Source: Halorarum halophilum
Lineage (GTDB): Archaea; Halobacteriota; Halobacteria; Halobacteriales; Haloferacaceae
Reading direction: 5' to 3'
DNA: 64,000 bases
NCBI RefSeq assembly: GCF_013401515.1
Contig: NZ_CP058529.1
Span: forward strand, 3,162,001 to 3,226,000
The notes beneath the pieces are model-generated. The model was not told the DNA's origin, made no database searches, and saw only the letters and a program-made list of their open reading frames with translations. Positions 26,817-34,857 of the stretch are shown here, piece by piece (within the stretch, counting starts at the first letter, position 1; each line of letters opens with the position of its first letter). Made by a program: the position numbers and the translations under genes.

Positions 26817-27545
26817 ATGGATTTCAGCGAACTCGTCCTCGTCGCACTCGTGGATGAGTTGTCAGAGGAACAGGAGGCGCGACCATACGCTGACGCCATT
26901 GAGTACAACGTACGTGGATCTAGTACCAATCTTGAATCGTTGGAAGAGTATCAGGGCGAACTTCCCATCATTGTAACGAGTGGGATAGCTGGTGCAACCA
27001 GAGAGGACAATCCTACGACGGATCTCGAGGCACTGCGTGCAGCGACAACCCATGATTCAGTCGAAGGAATGCTCATTGACTATGATACAGCTCGGGAGAA
27101 TGAACAGGAAGTTGAACGGTTGAGCAATGCGGATGTTGATCTCATCATCTTCTATCACAACTCCTCAGAGACTCCAAGTTCTGAGAAACTACTGTCAATA
27201 GTGGAAGATGCCGCCAAATACGGTGACGTTGTCAAGATCGCAACGATGGCTGAGACTCCAGCGGATACGGTGTCACTCTTGTCGGCTATCATGAATGCTA
27301 CATCTGAGGGTATTACTGTTGGCGGTGTGGGAATGGGTGAAGTGGGACGCCACACAAGAGTCGTTGCCCCTGGCTATGGTTCGAAATTAGCGTTTGCTCC
27401 GCTTCGTTCGGACGCAGACAATGCTGCCCCTGGTCAGTTTGGCTTGAAGGAACTCGCCGGACTCGTTGAACAAGTAGACGAAGTGGATCCGGATATGTCT
27501 CTTCACGAATCTATCACCAATCCACATATCCTCTCCGAAGAATAG
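26817..27545 (+). CDS. type I 3-dehydroquinate dehydratase-like protein (paralogue 1)
   Basis: 242 residues, lower GC than neighbours. The AroD catalytic His (H114 in 'IIFYHNSSETP') and Schiff-base Lys (K140 in 'VVKIATMAETPAD') are present, and the C-terminal 'MGEVGRHTRVVAPGYGSKLAFAPL' and 'APGQFGLKEL' match the family. The substrate-binding E-x-R-x-D motif, however, is E29-Y-N-V-R here rather than E-[FW]-R-x-D. The reaction in true AroD is dehydration of 3-dehydroquinate to 3-dehydroshikimate. The altered motif suggests an altered substrate. It is convergent with a second paralogue. Confidence 0.8.
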   Translation: MDFSELVLVALVDELSEEQEARPYADAIEYNVRGSSTNLESLEEYQGELPIIVTSGIAGATREDNPTTDLEALRAATTHDSVEGMLIDYDTARENEQEVERLSNADVDLIIFYHNSSETPSSEKLLSIVEDAAKYGDVVKIATMAETPADTVSLLSAIMNATSEGITVGGVGMGEVGRHTRVVAPGYGSKLAFAPLRSDADNAAPGQFGLKELAGLVEQVDEVDPDMSLHESITNPHILSEE

Positions 27546-27629
27546 ATACGTCGGCGACTGCTTTCTGTAGAACAGTTTAGAACAGCTATTTCAGGTTTGG
27601 ATCTTCAGAGTTGAAGATACTCTCATCTA

Positions 27630-28352
27630 CTACACCTGGGCGATGTCCTCGCTTACGCCAGTGAACTGAGAAAGCTCACCATCGGTCTCCTTGAGCGTCT
27701 CAATCATAGACGACAGCTGATGAATTGGGATCTGTCCGGGGGCGTACTCGTTCTCGTCCGACTCTAACGGTGCATATCCTAGCTTGGAGCCATAGAGCGG
27801 TGCGATGACTCGAGTGTGGCTTCCAACCTCTCCCATGGAGATGCCAGCGACTCGCATCCCATCCCTCGTTGTGTCGTTCACAGCCTGAATCATTCGTAGT
27901 GAGTCAGAGTGGTTTTGGGCATACGTTGCTACTTTTGCTATATCGCCGTAACGTGCACATTGGCTAAAAATCGCTTTGAGCGTCTCCAGATCGGGGGTTT
28001 CCTCGAACGCGTGGAAGGAAATTATGATTTCGACGTCGTTCTCGCGAAATTCCGGGAGAACCCAATCCGTTCCTCGTGCCGTCTCCAGTTCGATGTCGAC
28101 CATCTCAACCGCATCGAACTTGGAGGCCGCGAAGAGACAATCCAACCGTCCAGTATCATATGCCTGTCCACCGAACCACTTGCCCCTGTTCGTGGCGATG
28201 ATCGGAAGTTTCCCGTCGTAGTTTGTGAGTTGAGTAAGTGGATCCTCTGCTTTGTCCATTCGGAACTCGATGATATCCGCTACATCCCTCACGTGTTTTT
28301 CCTGAGTGAGGTCGTTTGTTGTTGCAGCGAGGGCGAACCGATCCTGTCTCAT
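27630..28352 (-). CDS. aroD: type I 3-dehydroquinate dehydratase-like protein (paralogue 2)
   Basis: 240 residues. The motif residues line up one-for-one with paralogue 1: E29-F-R31-M-D33 (canonical), H114 in 'ISFHAFEETPD', K140 in 'IAKVATYAQ', then 'MGEVGSHTRVIAPLYGSKLGYAPL' and 'APGQIPIHQL'. All catalytic positions of type I dehydroquinase are kept, so this is the better candidate for real AroD activity. It could serve the shikimate pathway or quinate/shikimate catabolism. It converges on paralogue 1 with an 84-bp gap. Confidence 0.85.
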   Translation of the reverse strand: MRQDRFALAATTNDLTQEKHVRDVADIIEFRMDKAEDPLTQLTNYDGKLPIIATNRGKWFGGQAYDTGRLDCLFAASKFDAVEMVDIELETARGTDWVLPEFRENDVEIIISFHAFEETPDLETLKAIFSQCARYGDIAKVATYAQNHSDSLRMIQAVNDTTRDGMRVAGISMGEVGSHTRVIAPLYGSKLGYAPLESDENEYAPGQIPIHQLSSMIETLKETDGELSQFTGVSEDIAQV

Positions 28353-28769: not shown

Positions 28770-31016
28770 TCAACTATAGGATTGAATCGAAGCAGTTGTC
28801 GTTCTTGTAAGGTAATCCTTGATACCCAATTCTCGGTATCCCATCGGGGACAGGATCCCCAGAGCAGCACGGATGCACTGCTCACGGTACCAGTCAGCAT
28901 CGTAGTCGTCGACATGCTCGTGGTCGAGTCGCACCCGTTCGGTTCCACGGCGATCAGCGTCGACGACGACGTACTCGATCCGTTGGCCTGGTGAAAGCGG
29001 GGTCCCATGGCGCTTCGCCCGCTGGAGGGCACAGACGGTGAGCGTTTCCTGCGTGTACTCCTCGACGTGTTTCGAGACTTGCTGTTGAACCGTAAGCAGA
29101 TCGACGGCAACGTCACCGTCAGCAAGTTTGTCGAGCCGCGCGGCCAGCACGTCGAGAGCGACCTCCGGATCACGCGTTCGGTCGAACGTCGCGATCAACT
29201 CCCGCTGAACCTGGGCGACGAACGGTGGCGTATCGTGCTGGCGGCATTCGATACCCCGAACCTTCACCGCGTCACCCAGTCCGTTGGCTGGGTTGGATGG
29301 GAGCGCCTCACCTCGACGCTTCCCGAAGTACTTTGTGAGCGCGCCGGCGTTGGACTCCCGGAGGGGACAGAACGCGACCCAGTCGAACGCCGCCTCGTAC
29401 TCCAACTCTATGTCCACCTTCGCACTGACCTCGGCGGCGATCTCTTCGAGTGGCCGACGATCCGTTTCAGACACGCCCTCGGCTGGCGTCACCCAGATGG
29501 AGTCGACGATCCCGTGGAGGACGCGCCATCCACCAGCCTCGAGGGCGTCCTTCGCGTCGAGGACGATCTCCCGGGCGTAGGCGTTGATCGTCTCGTGGCA
29601 CTCGATGCGGCCGTACTTCGCGTTCGCGTGGCCCTGATAGCCGAAACACGAGACAAGAATCCACTTGATGGCCGACGAGCGATTCTCGAGTCGCACTCGT
29701 TCGTCCAGGTCGTCGGTTCGTTCCATGGCCGCCTTCATCGCGTCGCGATCATCGATGAGTGGGCCGAGGATGTCCCCCAGATAGCCCTCATTCTTGCAGA
29801 TAGCGTATCCCAGCTCGGGGACGACATCACGGGCCGTCTCCTCGTCACAACAGCCACACCGGACGGTCTCGGGCGAGACGTTGTACTCCCGAATGATGTT
29901 GGGGTACATGCTCGAGAAGTCGAGTTCGTGGACGTCCTCGTGGACCCCCACCTCGGGCGCGAGCGTCGCACCACCACGGTCGGCTGCGTCCAGTGTGGAC
30001 ATCCGTTTCACGAACTCCGGTCGCCACGGACGCCACGGGACGAGCACTCCCTGGGATCGAGCAGCGCGAATCTGCATCGCCGTGAGAACGCGTCCGATCG
30101 ATGCCCATGAGAGTTCCTGGAGGGGGAGCCCCGCCCGCTCGACGAGATCGAGACAGCCAGCGAGCCCGCCTTGCGACCAGAAGAACGTGTTGGAGCGGTC
30201 GATAAGCACCCGACCCGGGACGTTATAGCGGGCGGGCGAGTGACTGATTCGCCCGTAAGTCTGGTAGGTCGAGGCACCGGCGAGCGTCTCCCACCCTGGC
30301 TTCCGACCTAGGGTGAACTCATCGAGTCCGTACGTGTCGGCTGCCTCGAACAGGACTGAAACCACTTCCGCGGTGTCCATGACGAGCACGTCCGGATCCT
30401 GTTCGTCGACGAGTGCCCCAACGGCCTCGACCACTGCACGCGGATGTGACCCGACGCGTTCACCCTCGACCTGCAGTTGCGGGAGTGCGTCGACACCGTG
30501 CCCGATTTCGTGAGCGGGGAAGCCGAGATGAAGGGTTCGAAGCTCACGACGACTGGTGTCCGGGCCGGCTGGTGTCCCCGTCTCGAGCGCGTAGCGAAAC
30601 TGGCGAGAGAGGTCGACGTTGTAGCACGTCACCGCGTCGGGGTCGCCGAACTGCTGGGCGCGGTTTGCAACCGACGACACGGCGTCGATCGTGTGAACGT
30701 CGATACGAAGGAGGGGCCGTTCCTCTGTGCGCCACGACTGCCGCCAGTCTTCGACGGCTGTCGACGCGACAGCCTCGTGGGTCGCCAGCCACTCGCGGAG
30801 ATCCTCCAGGTCCTCGGTTAACGTCGTCCGGTCACTGCTGCCGGTCGGGGTCCGTCCTCCTGACTGCCCATACAGGTCCGAGACGCAATCGCCGAGATAC
30901 AGCGTCGGCTGATACTCCCTGTTCGTCGCTGTAGTCACGCCGTCATCCGTCACGTGCCACTCGCGGATGCCCCCACCGTCGAGGTAATCAGCGGTCAGCA
31001 TGCTCGGATTCGGCAT
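28770..31016 (-). CDS. family B DNA polymerase of accessory (PolB-like) type
   Basis: 748 residues. Motif A is intact: 'LDFSSMYPNIIREYN' with D366. Motif B is 'SSAIKWILVSCFGYQGHANAKYG'. Motif C, normally Y-G-D-T-D-S, reads H-G-I503-V504-D505-S, so the first acidic residue is lost while the metal-binding second Asp is kept. I cannot find a proofreading DxE box in the N-terminal region ('LLRIDVHTIDA' is the nearest). The polymerase is thus probably active but without 3'-5' exonuclease. It overlaps the upstream small gene by 29 bases and belongs to the operon with the RecA-like gene. Confidence 0.88.
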   Translation of the reverse strand: MPNPSMLTADYLDGGGIREWHVTDDGVTTATNREYQPTLYLGDCVSDLYGQSGGRTPTGSSDRTTLTEDLEDLREWLATHEAVASTAVEDWRQSWRTEERPLLRIDVHTIDAVSSVANRAQQFGDPDAVTCYNVDLSRQFRYALETGTPAGPDTSRRELRTLHLGFPAHEIGHGVDALPQLQVEGERVGSHPRAVVEAVGALVDEQDPDVLVMDTAEVVSVLFEAADTYGLDEFTLGRKPGWETLAGASTYQTYGRISHSPARYNVPGRVLIDRSNTFFWSQGGLAGCLDLVERAGLPLQELSWASIGRVLTAMQIRAARSQGVLVPWRPWRPEFVKRMSTLDAADRGGATLAPEVGVHEDVHELDFSSMYPNIIREYNVSPETVRCGCCDEETARDVVPELGYAICKNEGYLGDILGPLIDDRDAMKAAMERTDDLDERVRLENRSSAIKWILVSCFGYQGHANAKYGRIECHETINAYAREIVLDAKDALEAGGWRVLHGIVDSIWVTPAEGVSETDRRPLEEIAAEVSAKVDIELEYEAAFDWVAFCPLRESNAGALTKYFGKRRGEALPSNPANGLGDAVKVRGIECRQHDTPPFVAQVQRELIATFDRTRDPEVALDVLAARLDKLADGDVAVDLLTVQQQVSKHVEEYTQETLTVCALQRAKRHGTPLSPGQRIEYVVVDADRRGTERVRLDHEHVDDYDADWYREQCIRAALGILSPMGYRELGIKDYLTRTTTASIQSYS

Positions 31017-31278
31017 CGTTCAGGTCGGCTTCGAGCGCGTCGACCCGCTCGTCGAGGTCGTCGAGGCGACGTTCCTGTTCGAGATCGATCGAGATGAGCA
31101 TGGGGGCGAGTCGGTCCTCGTAATTCAGAATCCCACCTGCGTCGGCGTGCTCGCGTACGTATTCGAACAGGCGGTCGAACCGAGGTTGATCCCGTCGTCG
31201 GAGCGTCCGTCTGAACGCCTGCCAGCGCTCTTCGACTGTGCGAACGAGATCGCGAAACGTCGGGTTCGTCCGCCCCAT
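30988..31278 (-). CDS. small coiled-coil protein between RecA-like and PolB genes
   Basis: 96 residues from the ATG at 31278, which lies one base after the RecA-like stop; a longer in-frame start at 31353 would overlap that gene heavily. It begins 'MGRTNPTFRDLVRTVEERW', has Arg-rich 'FRRTLRRRDQPRFDRLFEYVREHADAGG' and ends in a coiled coil ('LEQERRLDDLDERVDALEADLND'). It overlaps the polB start by 29 bases. The fixed position suggests a polymerase-associated subunit. The family is known to me only as an uncharacterised haloarchaeal protein. Confidence 0.75.
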   Translation of the reverse strand: MGRTNPTFRDLVRTVEERWQAFRRTLRRRDQPRFDRLFEYVREHADAGGILNYEDRLAPMLISIDLEQERRLDDLDERVDALEADLNDAESEHADR

Positions 31279-31279
31279 C

Positions 31280-31975
31280 TCACAGTCCCCCCGAGCCATC
31301 CACGGCGCTCGCTGGCGTCGCAGGTGCCACGGGCTCGTCGACGCGCTGTGCACGATGTTCGAGCACTTCTCGCCAGAATGCGAGGGTCGTCTGGACCCAG
31401 CCGTTCTCCTGCGGGTAGACGAGTGTCTCGTGGCCGTCGCCCATGAAGCGCGGACCGAACCGGGTGTTAGTACACTCGAGTTCGCGATGCGCAGCGTTCC
31501 CGATCACCTCGGAGATGCCGTCGGTGTGCGTCCGGGTGAGGAGTACAGGAATGTCCCGCGTCCGGCTAACGCCAGCGAGGGTTGCGAGCCGCCGCACGAG
31601 GAGCTCCTTCGCCTGCCACTCAGGGATATCGTCCGTCCGGTAGAGCCCATCCACTGCGGGGGCGACGATGAGCGACGTGGACTCGTCGACGAGTGTGGGA
31701 AGGCGGTCCAAGAGCGCGGCGTGCTGCCACGGAGTGTGCCCGCGGGCGAGGCGAACCCGGTCGAGGTAGCCACGATGCGGCGCGAGTTCCCGGAACGTCG
31801 TCGTTCGAGCGTGCCCGAGGGCGTCGATCCAGACGGCGTTGCCATCGGTGCCAAGCAGTTCGTCGACGACGAGTGCGTGAAGCGGTTCCAGGCCGAGTTC
31901 ACCCTCGATATCCAGCAGTAAGACTCCCGGATCGAGTGTCGGGAGATCGATGGATGTTTGACGTCTGGTGTGCAT
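31280..31975 (-). CDS. RecA/RadB-like protein without Walker A, polymerase-associated
   Basis: 231 residues from the ATG at 31975; the in-frame upstream extension to 32158 has no similarity and runs through the promoter region. The fold looks RecA/RadB-like: 'GVLLLDIEGELGLEPLHALVVDEL', 'GNAVWIDALGHARTTTFREL' (strand carrying a Walker B-like Asp) and 'SLIVAPAVDGLYR' followed by 'RDIPVLLTRTHTDG'. No GxxGxGK[ST] motif exists. Bacterial ImuA is likewise a RecA-like protein of similar size without ATPase motifs and works with an error-prone polymerase. The operon with PolB supports an accessory role. The comparison is inference. Confidence 0.7.
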   Translation of the reverse strand: MHTRRQTSIDLPTLDPGVLLLDIEGELGLEPLHALVVDELLGTDGNAVWIDALGHARTTTFRELAPHRGYLDRVRLARGHTPWQHAALLDRLPTLVDESTSLIVAPAVDGLYRTDDIPEWQAKELLVRRLATLAGVSRTRDIPVLLTRTHTDGISEVIGNAAHRELECTNTRFGPRFMGDGHETLVYPQENGWVQTTLAFWREVLEHRAQRVDEPVAPATPASAVDGSGGL

Positions 31976-32285
31976 ACCAACCAATCCTGTCCATGACCGC
32001 TTGTACGTCAGCCATGGAAGGTCGGTGGAAGTGAAAGTACCCAGACACCCCGGAGTCAATCTGCGTCTCGGGTACTGGTATGGCGCTGCAGTCGGTGGAA
32101 TCTCTAGTGGAAACGGTGGGGAGAAATTTGGCAAATATCGCGAGTGGAAGTAGACCACTCCGGCAGGTCTCGATACGCACGGCTGTCCTGACTCGCTTAC
32201 GGACGCTGTTGCCGGAATGTCTGATTCGGCAACCGATCATTCAGTGCATTCGCGACCGATACAACTGTGGTTCGCCCGATTCGAG
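31976..32285. other. 310-bp intergenic region upstream of the RecA-like/PolB operon
   Basis: It should contain the promoter of the minus-strand RecA-like/PolB operon and the end of the SRAP gene. There is an interrupted inverted repeat around GAGTGGAAGTAGACCACTC (32141-32159; GAGTGG/CCACTC). No gene is supported. Confidence 0.4.
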
Positions 32286-32984
32286 TTACCCCCCGAACTC
32301 ACCGAGCCCGGACTGCTCCCCGATGTCGATTTCGTCGAGTAGCTCCGCGGAGTCGTTCCCTGGGCTGTTCACTCGTTTGGAGACGGGGTAGGCGTGAAGC
32401 TTATCGCTCGGGTACGGCTTCAGCACCGACTGCAACTCATCTTTGGATCCACCGGAGAGCCACGTCTCCTCGTGCTGTTGTTCGAGGATAACCGGCATCC
32501 GATCGTGGATTGGTTCGACCACCTCGTTTGCCTCGGTGGTGAGGATGGTGCAGGTGACGCGTGGATCGCCCTCTGCGGACGTCCACGTCTCCCATAATCC
32601 TGCGTACGCGTAGGGTGAGCGGTCGGGGCGCTCAATCCGATACGGTTGCTTCGACCCACGCGTTCCTTTCCACTCGTAGAAGCCGTCGGCGGGGAGGAGA
32701 CAGCGGCGCTGTTCGAAGGCTTCGCGGAACATCGACTTCTCGGCGACCGTCTCCGAGCGGGCGTTGATTGGCCGGGGAACATCCTCGGGGTCGTCTGCCC
32801 ATTGTGGCAGGAAGCCCCATTCCAAAAGGTCGAACTCCTGGGGGGCGTCGTTCTGAACGGCGAGCAACTCGTCCCGCGGGGCGATGTTGTATCGCGGTCG
32901 GATGGTGACGTCCTCGGCGGGCGTCGCGTCGAAGCGCTCCATCAGGACCGCTGGGTCGATTGCTAATGACGTGCGGCCGCACAT
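32286..32984 (-). CDS. SRAP-domain protein (YedK/HMCES family, abasic-site protein crosslinker)
   Basis: 232 residues. All SRAP residues are present: C2 (M-C-G-R), exposed after Met removal; N74 in 'RPINARSET'; E104 in 'DGFYEW'; and H160 in 'PIHDRMPVIL'. HMCES/YedK uses Cys2 to form a thiazolidine crosslink with abasic sites in single-stranded DNA and shields them from error-prone bypass. The gene lies upstream of the RecA-like/PolB operon on the same strand. In bacteria SRAP genes are often neighbours of SOS translesion polymerases and ImuA. Confidence 0.93.
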   Translation of the reverse strand: MCGRTSLAIDPAVLMERFDATPAEDVTIRPRYNIAPRDELLAVQNDAPQEFDLLEWGFLPQWADDPEDVPRPINARSETVAEKSMFREAFEQRRCLLPADGFYEWKGTRGSKQPYRIERPDRSPYAYAGLWETWTSAEGDPRVTCTILTTEANEVVEPIHDRMPVILEQQHEETWLSGGSKDELQSVLKPYPSDKLHAYPVSKRVNSPGNDSAELLDEIDIGEQSGLGEFGG

Positions 32985-33658: not shown

Positions 33659-34857
33659 CTAGCCCACTGAATCACCTGGCCGAACCAGAGCGGTCACCAG
33701 CATTCCGAGAAGTGAAACGACTGCTGCGGTCGCATACATTAGCTCGAATCCGACGTGATTTCCAAGGACACCGAACCCGATCACCCCCACACCAATCCCG
33801 ATGTCCATCCCGATGAGGACGGTTGCGGTCGCGCTTCCATTCTGGGTGTCCCGTGTGGCAACAATGGCGACCCTCTGTAGGAGTGGGAAAACGAGTGCAA
33901 ACCCGGCCCCGAACAGCCCGGCACCTGCGAGCAACCCGAGTGGGTGCCCAGAGACGACAAGGAGGCGAGGAGCGAGCGCGAGAAGTACCAGCCCAGCGGC
34001 TTGACAGATGAACGACGCCGAGAGTACGACCGGTACCGACCCTGGAAGTTGGCCCCGGACTGCGCGTGCGAGGATAATCGCCCCGCCCATCGCCGTGAAA
34101 AAGAACCCCGAGTTTCCGAGGCCGACGGTGGGGGTATAGAGCGGGATGAGTGCGTCGATGGCGCCGACAGGAACACTCGCGAGTGCGACCAGTAATGCGG
34201 CCGGCAACGCTTCCGGCGCATAGAACTCACCGGTACTGGTTGCGGGCGGTGTTGTCTCCTCAAGCGCGACCAGCGGGCCCAACACGAGAAGCGCAAGCAG
34301 TGCTGCGAAAGCAAATTGCGTCGGAAAATCCGTACTGGTGCGCTATCCAGAGTCCGGCCGGTGGAAGCACCATCAGCGCGATGTTCGGGACAATACCGAA
34401 ATACGCGAACCCCTCGGACTGGCGGGCGTCCGGTACCACGTCGGCAGCAATCGTCGGTGTCGCGGTACTGCTGGCGCCCTAGGTGAGCCCGTGGAGTACC
34501 CGCAGCCCGATTGCGACCCAGATGACGGTCGCCCACGCGAACGAGAGAGTCGCACCTGCGAGTGCGATGGCAGCGATGGCTTGGACACCCCGGCGACCAA
34601 CCCGATCGAGTAGCCATCCAGCGACTGGTCGCGCGACAACGGCTGCGAACGTGAACGCGCCAAAGGCAGCGCCAATGAGCGACTCGCTGTGCGTTAGCGA
34701 CTCCAGATAGACGGCGAAAATCGGGTGAACCGCTGCATAGCTGCTGTACGCGAGCAACTGCGCCCCGCAAACGAGGAGGAACGAGCGCGTCCACAGCGGC
34801 GGCTCCTCGTCGGTGACGATATGCGTTCTGGAGCCGCCGTGTGACCGCGCCGATCAT
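33659..34857 (-). pseudogene. broken MFS transporter, probable siderophore exporter
   Basis: An MFS protein in pieces. From the ATG at 34857 the frame starts 'MIGAVTRRLQ', shifts near 34815 to 'PPLWTRSFLLVCGAQLLAYSSYAAVHPIF', runs through 'RPVAGWLLDRVGRRG' (the MFS motif A) and meets an in-frame TAG at 34479-34481. It continues 'GASSTATPTIAADVVPDARQSEGFAYFGI', shifts again near 34310-34335 to 'TQFAFAALLALLVLGP' and ends at 33659. At least two frameshifts and one stop make it non-functional as read. It sits three bases after the last siderophore gene, where siderophore exporters normally lie. Confidence 0.75.

Follow-up and report, generated by a model that had tools for sequence, protein, structure and literature searches.

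Gene Organization of the Locus

The 64,000-nucleotide stretch of Halorarum halophilum DNA analyzed here (the window) carries a set of four genes on its minus strand between positions 28770 and 32984, which encode a SRAP protein, a RadA-like protein devoid of a Walker A motif (iRadA), a small helical protein (PPB2), and a family B DNA polymerase (PolB2). Domain matches and coordinates confirm the original prediction of four genes on one strand in this interval. The features are as follows.

28770..31016, minus strand: PolB2, family B DNA polymerase, 748 residues (PF00136, E 1.6e-27; NCBIfam NF004418, E 5e-279)
30988..31278, minus strand: PPB2 (arCOG07300-type), helical protein of 96 residues with an N-terminal MGRT arm (from sequence and relatives; family in PMC11791011)
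31280..31975, minus strand: iRadA, degenerate RadA/Rad51-like protein with no Walker A, 231 residues from the ATG (from profile, fold, and locus comparison)
32025..32036, minus strand: UV box TTTCACTTCCAC, which probably controls the operon promoter (motif originally reported in PMC2556686)
32286..32984, minus strand: SRAP (YedK/HMCES-like), 232 residues, complete active site (PF02586, E 6.5e-76), judged to lie outside the operon

The tight packing that had been predicted for three of the genes is found in iRadA, PPB2, and PolB2: a single nucleotide separates the iRadA stop codon from the PPB2 ATG, and PPB2 shares 29 nt with PolB2. SRAP lies ~310 bp from iRadA, across a gap that contains the conserved promoter element. 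An alternative GTG start for iRadA at 32158 is less likely, as both the alignment and the position of the promoter favor the ATG at 31975. A chance arrangement is excluded because the order iRadA–PPB2–PolB2 on one strand is kept in 92 of 92 complete loci (window counted); the PPB2–PolB2 interval is compact in 54 of these and contains additional DNA in 38.

Neither DUF72 nor LexA was seen beside the operon among the genes scanned. Two convergent type I 3-dehydroquinase-like genes lie next to each other at 26817–28352 (Pfam match for the copy at 27630–28352, the other recognized by eye). At 33659–34830 (minus strand), a siderophore cluster ends in an MFS transporter gene that an in-frame stop and a change of frame appear to have disrupted.

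The PolB2 Polymerase

Motif A of PolB2 reads DFSSMYPNII, motif B KWILVSCFGYQG, and motif C HGIVDSIWV, with IVD in place of DTD and the first Asp of the DxD thereby lost. The pattern is uniform across the 96 PolB2 proteins compared, with the motif A Asp and the second motif C Asp each kept in 96/96 and the first motif C Asp replaced in all of them, by Ile in 94 and by Leu in 2. No exonuclease domain was recognized by Pfam in the window protein at E values up to 1, PF00136 being the sole match, and the PDB alignment of the protein begins at residue 290; judging from its sequence, the proofreading exonuclease domain is probably inactive. With an unrecognized exonuclease domain and an altered motif C, this PolB is not a proofreading replicase, the case that would have counted against the original reading. 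At the other end of the protein, the C-terminus TASIQSYS resembles a clamp-binding tail. The motif xx[LIVM]xx[FYW] ends 95 of 96 PolB2 proteins versus 25% of internal segments, which is compatible with, and only suggestive of, a weak clamp-binding tail.

A PolB2 complex devoid of catalytic activity, with a structural or regulatory part in replication instead, was proposed in 2008 (PMC2527604), and the universal absence of the first motif C Asp and the unrecognized exonuclease domain lend this some weight. The invariance of the two remaining Asp residues argues against it, as does Sulfolobus PolB2, which carries Ile-Ile-Asp and yet polymerizes DNA and serves as an extender (PMC11791011, PMC8764526), and we hold a dead complex to be very unlikely. 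Sulfolobus PolB2 has been described as a damage-induced extender polymerase (PMC8764526, PMC7390963) and is the only PolB2 for which extension from lesions and mismatches has been shown (PMC8764526).

iRadA and PPB2

A profile search of the PDB with iRadA returned RadA (E 6e-13). The AlphaFold model (pLDDT 87, pTM 0.84) likewise gave RadA as the top Foldseek match (E 5e-12, TM 0.61), with RadA, DMC1, and RAD51 as the nearest solved folds, and the Walker A pattern is missing from 92 of 93 iRadA proteins. The predicted RecA-like protein without Walker A is thus borne out by profile and fold, and by descent it is a degenerate archaeal RadA/Rad51. The likeness to bacterial ImuA that had been proposed for it holds for the mode of action but not for descent, since the protein is of archaeal RadA/Rad51 origin. 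PPB2 begins with MGRTNPTF, and the pattern xGRT is kept in 89 of 92 PPB2 proteins.

A Haloarchaeal Copy of the PolB2 Mutasome

Together, the genes at 28770–31975 are a haloarchaeal copy of the known PolB2 mutasome (PolB2, PPB2, and iRadA), described in 2008, 2014, and 2025 (Rogozin et al. 2008, PMC2527604; Makarova et al. 2014, PMC4104785; Timinskas et al. 2025, PMC11791011). The original idea of a lesion-bypass or damage-tolerance module was therefore right but not new. The locus shares with the described system its three proteins and their order iRadA–PPB2–PolB2, the MGRT arm, the missing first Asp of DxD, the presumably dead exonuclease, and the Walker-less RadA; it differs in being a haloarchaeal copy with a UV-box promoter and a co-oriented SRAP gene just upstream. 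With the ImuA–ImuB–DnaE2 mutasome of bacteria it has in common a polymerase and an ATPase-dead RecA-family partner, at times with SRAP close by, whereas its polymerase belongs to family B, its RecA-family partner descends from archaeal RadA, and no ImuB or DnaE2 adjoins it. No C-family or Y-family polymerase gene was found among the adjacent genes scanned.

The 4.28-Mb genome from which the window is taken has a second complete PolB2 operon at 246 kb of contig C1 (G000:C1:245850-248960; L002, L117), with the order iRadA–PPB2–PolB2 and a PolB2 that is 49% identical to that of the window; no SRAP gene was seen close by. A third PolB2 copy is dead: decayed pieces of PolB2 and iRadA are found at G000:C3:64000-83900 (L120), a contig of 187 kb, and a broken piece of SRAP lies ~13 kb from them. 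In a survey of the family covering 147 genomes, PolB2 is present in 109 and SRAP in 143.

Relationship of SRAP to the Operon

The SRAP active-site set C2, N74, E104, and H160 is present in full, as seen in the sequence and in alignments to 2f20/6kcq, which upholds the original prediction of a complete active site. The same set is found in YedK and HMCES; what differs is that SRAP proteins of the archaeal family of the window fall into three clades, as seen in a tree of 40 proteins, and that the clade of the window copy is known, in this sample, only from its genus. Besides the window copy, this clade has two members, neither of them linked to polB2: another SRAP of the window genome (83% identical) and one from a congener.

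The four-gene unit of the original prediction is not supported here. Of 96 PolB2 loci, 18 have a SRAP gene no farther than about 8–10 kb away, namely the window and 17 others, and those 17 all belong to one different PolB2 clade, are situated mostly on secondary contigs, and are all divergent in orientation. Within the PolB2 clade of the window, SRAP is found at the operon in 0 of 20 relatives, so that only the window genome has the linkage, and the predicted conservation of gene order stands for the three downstream genes but fails for SRAP. Synteny with the closest operon (L042) spans only 28807–32063, with SRAP matched by a solitary gene at another place. The conserved promoter of the operon also lies downstream of SRAP, and the UV box is absent from all SRAP promoters tested. 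We reject a four-gene operon on the basis of synteny, the SRAP tree, and promoter position, and judge that SRAP lies outside the operon and that three genes, not four, form the PolB2 unit.

SRAP could still be a true fourth subunit of the mutasome or a co-regulated gene, capping abasic sites while PolB2 extends past them. The 18 linked loci out of 96 greatly exceed the roughly 0.6% expected by chance (a simple estimate of our own that takes one to two SRAP genes per 3.5-Mb genome), and SRAP shares the strand of the operon in the window. An earlier study, moreover, described SRAP as enriched near polB2 (PMC11791011), which makes a loose association in function plausible. Against actual membership stand the unlinked relatives, both of the operon and of the window SRAP itself, the short reach of the L042 synteny, the 310-bp gap with a conserved promoter in between, the SRAP promoters that have no box, and the divergent orientation at the other 17 loci. 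We therefore regard a fourth subunit as unlikely.

A Conserved UV Box Upstream of iRadA

The UV box TTTCACTTCCAC at 32025–32036 (minus strand) lies 61 nt upstream of the iRadA ATG, within the SRAP–iRadA gap, and matches an 11-bp motif found upstream of UV-B-induced Halobacterium genes, including radA1 and top6B (PMC2556686). Like the motif described there, TTTCACTTTCA (Boubriak et al. 2008), it is a hexamer direct repeat upstream of the TATA position, at a comparable distance from the start codon (~50–60 nt in the published motif, -61 in the window), and it is shared with radA and top6B; the window copy differs by one T-to-C change in the second repeat. The TATA region of the window, GACGTACAAG, looks weaker than the CCTTTTA of its relatives.

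Among operons chosen only by a PolB2 identity of at least 59% to that of the window, the box is present at 11–12 of 12 matches in 21 of 21, which, as operons within one clade, are not independent observations. Its position is -60 to -67 in 20 of them and -91 in one, where the start codon call is doubtful. Four further operons (L115–L117 and L063) joined the box group after the motif was seen and are excluded from the 21; one of these (L117), the second operon of the window genome, has the 10/12 match TTTCACTTCCGT at -61. Random 150-bp segments reach 11 matches in 0.3% of cases, and the box columns have a mean information content of 1.69 bits versus 0.31 for the left flank.

The box was found in 0 of 65 other PolB2 operons. 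A box universal to PolB2 operons is thereby ruled out, and its absence from most other haloarchaeal PolB2 operons means that it is not a universal PolB2 control. On the PolB2 tree, two changes suffice to explain its distribution over one clade plus L063, and it also occurs in PolB2 operons of three other families (L263, L264, and L266). Non-box PolB2 operons (L062, L064–L067, L070, L076, L099–L111, and L270–L297) have another conserved element, CGGAANNTTYCGGAA or TGAAACGCGGAAGCG, at ~-60 of iRadA, about the distance of the UV box, with a putative likeness to origin boxes.

The UV Box at Other Genes

Within the order, radA has the box at -59 to -62 in 29 of 30 genomes (at least 10/12 matches) and RPA has it at -91 to -99 in 27 of 30; in one genome it precedes top6B. 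In the window genome, a promoter scan by pattern search only gave five exact sites: at the polB2 operon, at radA, at RPA, at a 148-residue ORF, and at one place without a clear gene. A reversed-pattern control also gave five, so the box sequence alone is no predictor of function, and the notion that it marks a large regulon in this genome was rejected. Over 40 genomes, the exact sites number 218 versus 93 for the control, a 2.3-fold excess (table sums).

We infer that the box may mediate damage induction of the window operon. The box at -61 might instead be a basal promoter feature inherited within the clade, with no damage-specific role, as its near confinement to one PolB2 clade plus L063 and a count in the window genome no higher than control would suggest. 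Against this, the box recurs at a fixed distance in the unrelated radA and RPA promoters, at top6B, and in PolB2 operons of three other families, it exceeds the control across 40 genomes, and the Halobacterium genes that bear it are UV-B induced (PMC2556686). We leave the basal feature a small but appreciable chance.

The polB2 operon has no mention in the UV-B motif study (PMC2556686), promoters have none in the 2025 mutasome paper (PMC11791011), and a full-text search returned the motif in no further archaeal paper among the matches listed. The link between the box and polB2 therefore appears to be new within the open literature searched.

Model for the PolB2 Operon and Its Regulation

The explanation that we consider highly probable is that of a PolB2 mutasome that is damage-inducible through the box, with SRAP separate from it. 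Our direct observations are the gene content and order, the motif losses, the RadA fold of iRadA, and a conserved unit with a conserved promoter box. For the activities of the proteins and the complex that they would form, we draw on the literature on relatives. UV or other DNA damage would switch on the operon through the TTTCACTTCCAC box at -61, jointly with radA and RPA. PolB2, a polymerase without exonuclease, would extend primers that are mispaired or end at a lesion; PPB2 would be its helical partner, a trimer with an MGRT arm that reaches into the active site; and iRadA, an ATPase-dead RadA paralogue, would dock the polymerase. At stalled forks, the assembled complex would continue synthesis beyond lesions, perhaps tethered to PCNA through the C-terminal motif of PolB2. 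SRAP would be a separately transcribed abasic-site protector, situated beside the operon by happenstance or recent landing; the three-gene PolB2 unit is in this way set apart from a mere neighbor.

To our knowledge, no regulator of the SOS type has been described from haloarchaea. A fixed-distance box common to radA, RPA, and a translesion-polymerase operon points to a candidate haloarchaeal damage regulon in genetically tractable hosts. Through the shared box, its regulator could be sought directly, either by DNA affinity or in box-reporter screens. We see roughly even chances that the TTYCACTTYCAC box marks out an SOS-like haloarchaeal regulon in which radA, RPA, top6B, a Cdc6-like ATPase, and the PolB2 operon of one clade answer to a single putative regulator, which may be of the Orc1/Cdc6 type, as it is in Sulfolobus.

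Several further sites were recorded. A Cdc6/Orc1-like ATPase gene in one genome (L313, G153:C1:184430-185470) has the box at -57 and is followed ~1 kb downstream, in the same orientation, by a PolB2 operon. The 148-residue ORF of the window genome (L162:1577-2020), which has no Pfam match and begins 76 nt downstream of the start of its exact box, is a candidate new damage-response gene. In three different genomes (L304, L310, and L314), an exact box precedes a gene of the PALP type (threonine dehydratase-like) by 130–178 nt; the Pfam PALP and ACT domains behind this call were checked in L304 alone.
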